Source: Phycisphaeraceae bacterium
GTDB lineage: Bacteria; Planctomycetota; Phycisphaerae; Phycisphaerales; Phycisphaeraceae
Length of the DNA stretch: 64,000 nt
Assembly (NCBI GenBank): GCA_029260655.1
Contig: JAJDCU010000016.1
Location: forward strand, 1-64,000
Direction of reading: 5' to 3'
In this document: piece after piece, positions 35,894-39,225 of the stretch
Layout: each line of letters starts with the position of its first letter
Position numbering within the stretch: the first letter of the stretch is position 1
Made by a program: the position numbers and the translations under genes
The notes under the pieces: generated by a model
Told to the model about the DNA's origin: nothing
The model's input: only the letters and a program-made list of their open reading frames with translations
Database searches by the model: none

Positions 35894-36595
35894 ATGAACG
35901 ATCCTGGTTTCCCGGGCCCCGACTCCTTGTGCGAAGATTGCGGCTACGCGCTTAAGGGGCTTAAGCCCGACGGCGGTTGCCCGGAGTGCGGTCATCCAAT
36001 CGCCGAATCCTCCCCGGCCCTGCGCACGGGCCCATCGTGGCAGGACCGGATGACTGCCAGCGCGTTGTTCCAGGTGGTGGCTGACCTGACGCTACGCCCC
36101 AAACGCTTTTTCCGCACCCTGCGGGTTGACGGGACCAACGCCCGGGCCCGAATGTTTCTGGTGCTGGTCGCCGGATTGATCGGCCTTGGCTGGTCCGCGA
36201 TGGGCCAGGCGTTGTACCCCGGCGGGATAGCATCGCGCCTGATCAGCGGGGCCTTGGTGGCCTTAAGCGTGATCCTGCTGAGCTATATCGAGGCGCTGGG
36301 GGTGACGTTTTTCAGCCGGCGGCGGGATTGGCGTGTGCCGCTGAAATTGGCCGAGCGGCTGGTCTGCTACGCCTCGATCGGCTGGCTGCCTGCCGCGGCG
36401 GCGATGGCGCTGGCTTCCTGGCCGCTTAAGGACGGGACGCTGGAACGCTGGATGCTGGGGGTGCTGGGCATCTGGGGGCCCTGGCAGACGATCGCACTGC
36501 TGATGCTGGTCGGGTCCGTCGCCATGATGTGGTTTGAAGTGCTTGTTTGGACCGGGGTTAGACAGACAAAGCACGCCAATTGGCGTACCTATTAG
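35894..36595 (+). CDS. Zinc-ribbon membrane protein
   Basis: This 233-residue protein opens with a zinc ribbon, CEDCGYALKGL followed by CPECGHP, then about five hydrophobic helices resembling the Yip1-like membrane domain of planctomycete proteins. Function unknown. TAGAAT at 35882-35887 lies exactly 6 nt before the ATG, predicting a leaderless mRNA. The long structured block before rny begins right after its stop. Confidence 0.8.
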   Translation: MNDPGFPGPDSLCEDCGYALKGLKPDGGCPECGHPIAESSPALRTGPSWQDRMTASALFQVVADLTLRPKRFFRTLRVDGTNARARMFLVLVAGLIGLGWSAMGQALYPGGIASRLISGALVALSVILLSYIEALGVTFFSRRRDWRVPLKLAERLVCYASIGWLPAAAAMALASWPLKDGTLERWMLGVLGIWGPWQTIALLMLVGSVAMMWFEVLVWTGVRQTKHANWRTY

Positions 36596-36677
36596 CGGTC
36601 ATGACGGGTCATTTATCGAGCATCCCAGGCTAATTGGGCTCTTTATCGAAAGATGTCTGGTCCGCAATTGTGGAAAC

Positions 36678-36705
36678 TTGACTAGCGCCTGTAAGCAGGG
36701 ATAAG
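36678..36705 (+). promoter_or_regulatory. Promoter of the rny-upstream RNA
   Basis: TTGACT at 36678-36683 and GATAAG at 36700-36705 are spaced by 16 nt. Transcription is expected near 36712, more than 520 nt before the rny start codon. Confidence 0.55.
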
Positions 36706-36711
36706 ATCACT

Positions 36712-36878
36712 CTATACATCACCTTGAGCAGGCTCTGACATGCCGTCACAGCCCGTCCAAGGTTGCGGCTTAGGCCGCGAGTTTGTTCCGAGTTACCGCC
36801 GTGTTAAACGGCGATTAACCGGCACGATCCGGGCACTAAAACTCGGCCCGCATCGGTGACCGATCATCGCGGGGTTTT
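36712..36878 (+). ncRNA. Candidate small RNA with own terminator
   Basis: About 167 nt lie between the promoter at 36678 and a terminator. Helices: GCGGC 36765-36769 with GCCGC 36774-36778 around a ttag loop; CGAGTTT 36778-36784 with AAACTCG 36839-36845 closing a domain that holds CGCCGT 36797-36802 with ACGGCG 36808-36813; then the stem CCCGC-ATCGG / CCGAT-catc-GCGGG at 36847-36873 followed by TTTT at 36875-36878. There is no credible reading frame. It matches no RNA class I know; size is near that of 6S RNA but I cannot show 6S features. Confidence 0.5.
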
Positions 36879-37239
36879 CAGGCATGGAACCCTTCGGCCG
36901 TCTGATTACAGACGGGATAGATTAATGAAGCTCCACAACGACGTTCTGAAACATACGGATCCACCAACGCACCGGGAACCAGGGCGGTTAATCGTCACCC
37001 CTGCGCCGGGGGCTGTTCTGTGCTCGCAACGAGCGCGGTCGGCTTCGTCCCGCTAGCGTCTGGCCACAGCCCGTGACCAGTGATCCATCAGAGCGTCCAA
37101 GAGCCGGATCGGTCGCCGTTTTGAGCTGAGAGGCCCGCGACGCTTTGCGTCTGCGGCCATGCTCCAAGGTCGTGCCCTAACCACCGGGCCGGCGTGTGTT
37201 GTTTCGCGCATCGGAACCCGGACATAAAGGGCTGGACTA
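36879..37239 (+). other. Structured 5' region of rny
   Basis: Hairpins continue to the rny start: CCGTCTG 36898-36904 with CAGACGG 36909-36915 (7 bp, atta loop); GGGCTGT 37010-37016 with ACAGCCC 37066-37072 enclosing two smaller stems; and a long stem over 37132-37158 with the core GACGC-ttt-GCGTC. If the terminator at 36847-36878 is read through, this forms the mRNA leader of RNase Y. The open frame 36856-37056 has no protein-like features. Confidence 0.45.
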
Positions 37240-38862
37240 GTGACCACCATCCAAATGCTGGCACAGATACAAGTGACCACCGGGCTGCTCTACGGCTTGG
37301 GGGGCCTGGTCGTCGGTGTGATCGGGACCATCGTCCTGCGCAAGTTCATCGGGGTCCAGATCGTCACCCAGAGCCGACGCCAGGCCCAGGACCTGCTGGA
37401 CAAGGCCCAGAGCGAGGCCCAGACCCTCAAGAAGCAGGCCGAGCTGGACGGGCTCAACGAGCTGGCCAAACGCCGAGACACCTTCGAGAAAGAAACCAAC
37501 GCCCAGCGTAACGAGATCAAGGAGATCGAACGCCGGGTGACCAAGCGCGAAGACAACCTCGATCGCAAGCTCGATACCCTGACAACGAAAGAAAAATACC
37601 TCGACGACCTGGACGCCGGGGTCAAAAAACGTGAAACGCAGCTCGCCGGCAAGCAGGAGGAGCTGGACGCCCTGGCGGTCGAGCGTAAGGAGCTTCTGGA
37701 AACGTCACGCCAGGAGCAGAAGCAGACGCTATTGCGGATCGCGAACCTGTCCGAGGACGATGCCAAGCGCGAGTCGCTCAAGGCGGTGGAGCGTGAATGC
37801 CAGCACGAGGCCGGGCAGTTGATCCGTCAGATCACCGAGAAGGCCGAGGAGGAGGCGAAAGACAATGCGCTGAAGGTCACCCTCCAGGCGATCCAGCGCT
37901 ACGCCTCGGAGCACACCGCCAACTCGACCGTCAACGCGATCCCGATCCCGTCCGACGACATGAAGGGCCGGGTGATCGGCCGGGAAGGCCGGAACATCCG
38001 CGCGTTTGAAAAAGCGACCGGCGTGGACGTGATCGTCGACGACACGCCCGGGGTCATCGTCGTCTCCTGTTTCGACCCGGTCCGCCGAGCCATCGCCTCG
38101 GAGACCATGCAAAAGCTCCTGGAGGACGGGCGCATCCACCCGACCCGGATCGAGGAAATCGCCGAGCAGGTCGGCAAGGAAATCAACGAGCGGATCGTCA
38201 AGTTCGGCAAAGACGCCTGCATCGAAGCCAATATCCAGGGCCTGCACCCCAAGCTCTCCGAGACGATGGGCAGGCTCTACTACCGATCCAGCTACGGGCA
38301 GAACATCCTCCGCCACTCGATGGAGGCCGCCTACCTCTGCCAGGTCATCGCCGATGAATTGGGGCTCGACGGCGAGCTGGCGCGCCGCTGCGGATTCCTG
38401 CACGACATCGGCAAGGCGCTGGATCACGAGGCCGAGGGCGGACACCCCCAGATCGGGATGGACTTCGCCAAGAAGTTCGGCGAAAAAGAAGCGGTCCTCA
38501 ACGCCATCGGCGGGCACCACAACGACATCCCCTCGACCACGCCGTACACACCGATCGTCATGGCCGCCGACGCCATCAGCGGCGCTCGACCCGGCGCACG
38601 CCGAGAGACCCTCGAACGCTACGTCAAACGCCTGGAACAGCTTGAAGGCATCGCCACCGACATGAAGGGCGTCAAGGACGCCTACGCCATCCAGGCCGGC
38701 CGAGAGGTCCGCGTCATCGTCGACCCCGAGTCCGTCGACGACACCAATTGCAGCTACATCGCAAGGGACATCGCCAAGCGCGTCAGCGACGAGATGACCT
38801 TCCCCGGCGAGATCCGCATCACCGTCCTCCGCGAGATGCGGACGATCGATTACGCGAAGTAA
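37240..38862 (+). CDS. rny: Ribonuclease Y
   Basis: RNase Y is a membrane-anchored endoribonuclease that initiates mRNA decay. The 540-residue protein has an N-terminal membrane helix (residues about 15-35), a coiled coil to about residue 215, a KH domain with [19 protein letters not shown], and an HD domain with RHSMEAA and [12 protein letters not shown]. Length and order match the family. The start is GTG at 37240; no good ribosome-binding site is visible nearby. The long structured upstream region suggests control at the RNA level, possibly by the enzyme itself, which is inference. pnp, another decay enzyme, is at 49803. Confidence 0.95.
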
Positions 38863-38943: not shown

Positions 38944-39225
38944 ATGCGATGCCCGGAATGCAATGCGTTGATGGAAGAAGGCCTCTTGCCGGTATCCGAC
39001 GGCCTGCATTGGCTGCACGGGCGCACGCCCGGCGGGGGCGGGATGGCCGAGGACGTGCCGGGGACCCACGCGGTGATGCGGCCCAACCGCATGGAGGGCT
39101 ACCGCTGCAAGAAGTGCCACCTGATCCTCTTCCGCTACGGCGAGTCGTGGGACGCGAATAAGAAGGCGCAGATGCTGGCGGCGTCGGAGGGCCCGGCCGA
39201 GGAAGCACCCGACGGGGAAGAGTGA
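38944..39225 (+). CDS. Small zinc-binding protein, DUF6487-like
   Basis: This 93-residue protein has two CxxC pairs: MRCPECNALMEEGLL at the start and YRCKKCHLILFRYGE near residue 60, with a Gly/aromatic linker between. This pattern matches small planctomycete and bacterial zinc-ribbon proteins of the DUF6487 kind, whose function is unknown. The acidic tail (EGPAEEAPDGEE) is probably disordered. The frame is open from 38917, but the ATG at 38944 starts the ribbon. It follows rny by 81 nt and may be cotranscribed. Confidence 0.8.
   Translation: MRCPECNALMEEGLLPVSDGLHWLHGRTPGGGGMAEDVPGTHAVMRPNRMEGYRCKKCHLILFRYGESWDANKKAQMLAASEGPAEEAPDGEE

Follow-up and report, generated by a model that had tools for sequence, protein, structure and literature searches.

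What fills the long gap in front of the RNase Y gene? The window analysed here, a stretch of 64,000 nucleotides, is part of a Phycisphaeraceae genome of 3.52 Mb in total. Among its named relatives, metagenome assemblies of Phycisphaeraceae are the nearest, and strains such as syqfu and ZRK34 are more distant. Its rny gene (37240..38862), encoding RNase_Y_N, KH and HD domains, follows an interval, 36595-37240, that a preliminary description had judged to hold no credible gene and to carry a structured RNA that has a promoter of its own. The gap does lack any gene-like open reading frame (ORF), except for a possible short upstream ORF. Is this block the 5' leader of rny, or an independent RNA that lies beside it? 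And, if a leader, how might it act on RNase Y synthesis? Control of the level of a decay enzyme is known in detail mainly for enterobacterial RNase E and Bacillus RNase Y. In the open-access literature searched we found neither a description of such an rny leader nor anything comparable for the phylum, in which the element would be a structured, order-wide means of RNase Y control. The features of the leader described below, and rny, are on the forward strand.

The locus and its neighbours

Upstream of the block is a zinc-ribbon gene (35894-36595), whose product is probably a membrane protein and has no Pfam match. It is the upstream neighbour in five congeners as well, where the protein is 51-55% identical to that of the window, against about 90% for rny, and it was not detected at two other loci of the family that were checked. 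Directly 3' of rny is a gene for a DUF6487 protein (38947-39222). No tRNA or tmRNA was found in the window by ARAGORN. The genome encodes RNase E/G in addition to RNase Y (an 827-codon frame, G000 contig C31:60526-61338), and RNase Y therefore need not be its main decay enzyme.

A conserved four-helix domain

At the centre of the block is a domain of four helices and a tail (36817..36933), an order-wide element defined by covariance models R1 to R3, by covariation and by the fold of the window copy. P1, composed of CGG/CCG and CACG/CGUG, pairs CGGCAC at 36820-36825 with 36856-36862 and is continued by P2 (36826-36834 with 36846-36854), the two spanning 36820..36862. They are followed by P3 (36867..36897), a hairpin of variable length, and by P4 (36898..36915), in which CCGUCUG (36898-36904) pairs with CAGACGG (36909-36915). 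P4 is the stem previously noted at 36898-36915, and it is kept across the order.

Compensatory changes, the sign of a conserved secondary structure in a cis-regulatory leader RNA, were looked for upstream of rny and were found. Across 51 sequences, both partners have changed in 23 of the 26 domain pairs; double-changed cells number 231, compared with 72.2 +/- 8.7 in shuffles. The underlying alignment had been fitted to the model, towards which it is biased. Both-sided changes affect 9 of 12 pairs in P1 and P2 (86% and 84% of cells paired), all 8 modelled pairs of P3 (82% paired) and all 6 of P4, which is the best-paired helix of the domain at 94%. When partners are shifted by 1-3 columns, pairing falls from 86% to 32-40%. 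Folded by itself, the window copy has the same four helices as the model in its minimum-energy structure, and the leader folds better than shuffles, with z scores of -4.95 for 36712-37260 and -2.35 for 36817-36933. From a loose alignment, RNAalifold retrieved P1 and P4 only in part.

Around the domain are hairpins conserved at the level of the genus. Near the 5' end of the transcript, CCUUG pairs with CAAGG (36722..36762; 36722-36726 with 36758-36762), and congeners have the matched change CUUUGAG/CUCAAAG. A second hairpin, GCGGC..GCCGC (36765..36778), is kept in congeners and reads GGCGGC/GCCGCC against GACGGC/GCCGUC in L006. The hairpin CGCCG..CGGCG (36797..36813), right before the core domain, and CCCGCGACGC..GCGUCUGCGG (37134..37156) are likewise kept in congeners. 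The stems that had been proposed at 36765-36778, 36797-36813 and 37132-37158 thus survive comparison, while two further pairings, 36778-36784 with 36839-36845 and 37010-37016 with 37066-37072, are not seen in the congener alignment.

Distribution of the element

A DNA search placed the block before rny in each of the five congeners and detected fragments of it in two other genera of the family. The sample was extended to 60 further rny-upstream regions from families f1-f6 of the order, and later by another 20; the motif that emerged from these regions comprises AACCGGCACG, CCGAUCA and GGAUAGAUUGA. The first covariance model was built on a sequence alignment and a hand-drawn structure; R1 came from ten family sequences, with R2 and R3 as refined versions. 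At E < 0.007, R1 detected 39 copies, including 29 outside the seed. With R2, 57 of the 86 loci have a match in the orientation of rny, the weakest of these being insecure, and 2 matches are on the opposite strand. Clear matches come from families f1, f2, f3 and f6. These models have no match in family f5 or in many genomes of f2 and f3. Relatives with complete genomes that carry the element include strain syqfu (CP087563, locus L104) and strain ZRK34 (CP050848, locus L113).

Among 201 genomes of the order, R3 has a match in 49, and a single one in each. Forty-five matches reach E <= 0.002. Forty-four of these are tied to rny and all 44 lie upstream of it on the same strand, 151-498 nt before the first aligned base of rny (median 327). 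The last of them, in G152, lies close to the end of its contig, and the genome gave no match to rny. Two weaker matches (E 0.003 and 0.011) are unlinked to rny; this count of linkage leaves out two others, at E 0.025 and 0.048. The element of the strong, placeable matches is therefore found on one strand and upstream of one gene in many genomes. The RNase E/G gene, which is on a different contig from rny, has no R3 match. A wider spread in the class was considered and rejected: over 397 genomes, weak matches (E 0.0002-0.05) occur in about the number expected by chance and, where they can be placed, are not near rny.

Promoter and extent of the transcript

Where does the transcript begin? A promoter of the σ70 type is present at 36678..36707, with the -35 element TTGACT (36678-36683) separated by N18 from TAAGAT (36702-36707). 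It was already placed here by the preliminary description; TAAGAT is its best -10 element, and it is the sole σ70-like site in 36400-37400. The promoter is kept in congeners, and the same type of site recurs across the order: of the 57 loci, 40 have TTGAC-N16..20-TANNNT no more than 220 nt before the domain and 1 has it between the domain and rny, and the pattern occurs once in the 51.9 kb farther upstream. On these counts it is very probable that the transcript starts before the domain, and probable that transcription of rny passes through it. Since rny has no other visible σ70 promoter, we interpret the block as the rny leader and not as an independent small RNA. It is very probably a 5' leader of about 530 nt on the rny mRNA, and that this is a conserved structured leader of rny is highly probable.

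An independent small RNA of about 170-230 nt, beside rny by chance or through conserved gene order, would have its own promoter too, and in the window a hairpin followed by TTTT could end it. It had been suggested that 36847-36878 is an internal terminator that releases a free RNA of about 167 nt. However, this hairpin is an alternative fold of strands belonging to P1, P2 and P3, and congeners retain the P1-P4 alternative to it. The U run is not conserved, TTTT in the window being TTTG in five congeners, and the domain at 36817-36933 straddles the supposed terminator. Across 55 leaders no terminator recurs at one position; terminator-like sites number 17, against 7.7 in shuffles, and their positions are scattered. 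In 56 of 57 loci, rny would be left with no promoter of its own. A separate small RNA is thus very improbable. What stands of the preliminary description is a structured RNA, with a promoter of its own, that covariation and synteny support as the rny leader and as a probable control of RNase Y expression; the free small RNA does not stand. A transcription attenuator with a conserved intrinsic terminator was also rejected, given the loss of the U run in congeners and the scatter of terminator-like sites.

The tail and a possible upstream ORF

Immediately 3' of P4 is a single-stranded, A/U-rich tail, GAUAGAUUA in the window (36916..36924), with the consensus GAUAGAUUGA. Written AUAGAUUGA, or GGAUAGAUUGA in the summary motif, it is almost invariant, and it is 74% A+U compared with a leader mean of 41%. 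A possible upstream ORF begins directly behind it (36925..37056), with AUG at 36925, 43 codons and the stop UAG; its start and length are conserved in f1, its peptide is not. Among 45 leaders of all families, 25 have an AUG within four codons in the frame of the tail, whereas the other frames give 1 and 0. Within f1, 22 of the 23 AUG-started ORFs are 38-82 codons long, where 8.6 of at least 38 codons are expected and the other frames give 4 and 5 of 23; the frame was picked after the sequences had been inspected, so that these counts are somewhat flattering. Leaders that lack the AUG almost always have a UUG in that frame.

The peptide of the ORF is unconstrained. Substitutions among congeners are spread nearly evenly over the codon positions (188, 171 and 212), and codon use gives no sign of coding. 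A conserved protein in the leader was rejected for this evenness and because the ORFs match only inside a genus. Inspection revealed no strong Shine-Dalgarno sequence before the upstream ORF, and no stall codon is visible in it.

Some leaders depart from this layout. The g31 leaders L016, L017, L018 and L023 have a divergent domain, and the stretch open from UUG at their tail, AUAGAUUGAAGAAGAUUUC, is just some 10-14 codons long. L018 has a sequence, UUCAAUCUA, complementary to the tail. For f6 and g31, a long-range contact between the tail and UUCAAUC was considered and discarded, being only slightly better than with mismatched partners.

Possible alternative pairings in front of rny

Two boxes between the domain and rny can form alternative pairings. 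The first, GAUCGGUCGCC (37107..37117; family consensus CUGAUCG(G)), is complementary to the 3' strand of P1 with its joining strand, GGUGACCGAUC (36855..36865). Together they have 11 possible pairs, incompatible with P1, and this contact appears in the fold computed for the entire leader. CTGATCG is an enriched 7-mer in the spacers between domain and rny. In f1 the CUGAUCG(G) box, whose complement is the P1 joining strand CCGAUCAG, follows the tail at a distance of about 105-270 nt, in most cases 155-235 nt, and its partners there pair better than permuted ones in a weak test (p 0.005, uncorrected for relatedness).

The second box, CGUGCCCUAA (37171..37180), contains GCCCU (37174-37178), which can pair with the rny Shine-Dalgarno sequence AAAGGGC (37226..37232). 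The spacers are enriched in 7- to 9-mers that include CGTGCCC and GTGCCCCAA, and GAAAGGG is the most enriched 7-mer of all. In f1, CGUGCCC(C/U) is typically 20-60 nt before the Shine-Dalgarno sequence GAAAGGGGC, with usually 4-10 possible pairs. Matched changes are seen, such as CGUGCCCU/GGGGCACG in L050, ACCCCU/AGGGGU in L039 and GCCCU/AGGGC in the genus; the permutation test of this pairing is weak (p 0.03, uncorrected for relatedness).

The position of the upstream ORF relative to the first box suggests the main rival to RNase Y feedback, a leader that senses translation. Ribosomes would start beside P4 and stop at or before the CUGAUCG box, and their position would decide whether the box pairs with P1 and hence whether the rny ribosome site opens. 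Nineteen leaders combine an AUG with an exact copy of the box; in every one the ORF ends at or before the box, in 7 of them inside the UGA of the box itself, and the box complements the P1 joining strand. In addition, 22 of the 23 AUG-started ORFs in f1 have at least 38 codons, over the 8.6 expected, with no conservation of the peptide. But f6 and several f1 genomes have no AUG and only UUG available, with an open stretch that is sometimes very short, and the ORF has neither a strong Shine-Dalgarno sequence nor the codon use of a coding sequence. In this rival, which we consider rather unlikely, RNase Y output would track the translation state of the cell. In its more specific form, a translation-coupled sensor with a peptide-independent ORF that starts in the RNA domain and stops abutting the switch strand, it is unlikely; it would tie RNase Y synthesis, and hence mRNA decay capacity, to translation.

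Alternatively, P1-P4 might bind a small molecule or another RNA-binding protein, with the downstream boxes as an expression platform acting on the rny Shine-Dalgarno sequence. A compact covarying domain in front of mutually exclusive pairings is an aptamer-like layout. However, Rfam searches gave no similarity to a known aptamer, and the element occurs before rny only, in a single copy per genome. A riboswitch typically controls more than one gene of its pathway, and a ligand-binding riboswitch is less likely because rny alone carries the element. We regard this reading as distinctly unlikely.

A proposed model for control of RNase Y

What, then, does the leader do? As the element is tied to rny only, self-control similar to that of Bacillus subtilis RNase Y and Escherichia coli RNase E suggests itself. 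RNase Y sites are A/U-rich single strands near structure, with some preference for G (PMC10303841). The A/U-rich tail 3' of P4 fits these published sites, hence our proposal that RNase Y would cut in the tail or behind it. Such cleavage is plausible, given the linkage to rny only and the A/U-rich tail beside P4, and the tail is a possible cut site as well as the possible start region of the upstream ORF; its conservation may reflect the latter instead of cleavage.

In the feedback model, abundant RNase Y would recognise P1-P4 and cut the exposed GAUAGAUUGA beside P4, or the spacer behind it, after which the rny mRNA would be lost or its ribosome site kept shut. When RNase Y is scarce, the leader would stay intact and rny would be translated. 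Ribosomes translating the upstream ORF across the spacer would likewise leave the leader intact and rny translated, so that this translation and the opening of the Shine-Dalgarno stem might together protect the message. We give an even chance to the leader being a new class of cis-regulatory RNA that controls RNase Y synthesis with RNase Y feedback as its main mechanism. Comparison of genomes establishes the dedicated promoter, the covarying domain with its tail and the restriction to rny, whereas the upstream ORF that starts at the tail in one family and the box facing the rny Shine-Dalgarno sequence have less firm support. The element has well-defined parts open to test: helix P4 and the near-invariant tail behind it, the upstream ORF, and both the CUGAUCG box and the partner of the Shine-Dalgarno sequence.

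Comparison with known systems

No Rfam family matches the window at its gathering score. Two known structured RNAs have their best matches elsewhere in the genome and were rejected for this locus: RNase P RNA (RF00010) is clear on C80 at 257.6 bits, and 6S RNA (RF00013) is sub-threshold on C1 at 35.1 bits. The latter match, L096 (G000 contig C1:69055-69173, minus strand; E 2.4e-5), is a candidate divergent 6S RNA. The rne leader elements rne5 and rne-II are absent among the Rfam matches at E <= 10 for 36500-37300 and at E <= 5 for seven related loci.

The rne5 element (RF00040) is the RNase E 5' UTR element of enterobacteria, for which feedback control has been shown. Both rne5 and the rny leader are structured and precede the coding sequence of a major decay endonuclease, with feedback shown for the one and proposed for the other. 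The enzyme is different, however, and there is no detectable match in sequence or structure. An upstream ORF is not known in rne5. The present element lies upstream of rny and not of rne, and because no Rfam model matches and the gene differs it is not a member of rne5; if feedback holds, it is probably like rne5 in function yet unrelated to it. A further structured leader candidate of rne is rne-II, which differs from the rny leader in taxon and gene and has no Rfam match here. The rne-II family (RF01756) is listed for Pseudomonadales (PMC2864571).

The upstream ORFs of topAI (PMC12121999) and speF (PMC6386406) are reported to respond to stalling or to a metabolite, and they resemble the present case as short ORFs in structured leaders that may set alternative folds; in the rny leader the peptide is unconserved and no stall codon is visible. 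E. coli RNase E, as summarised in PMC10303841, binds a stem-loop of its leader that stays uncut, which speeds cleavage elsewhere. A further comparison is with B. subtilis, in which the same enzyme autoregulates by cutting its own leader and early ORF (PMC10303841). Control there also acts through the leader and start region of the gene itself, and the Shine-Dalgarno sequence can be in structure (PMC10303841). The B. subtilis leader is 160 nt long and A/U-rich, and no defined recognition structure has been reported for it (PMC10303841), whereas the leader described here is GC-rich, about 530 nt long and built around a conserved four-helix domain.
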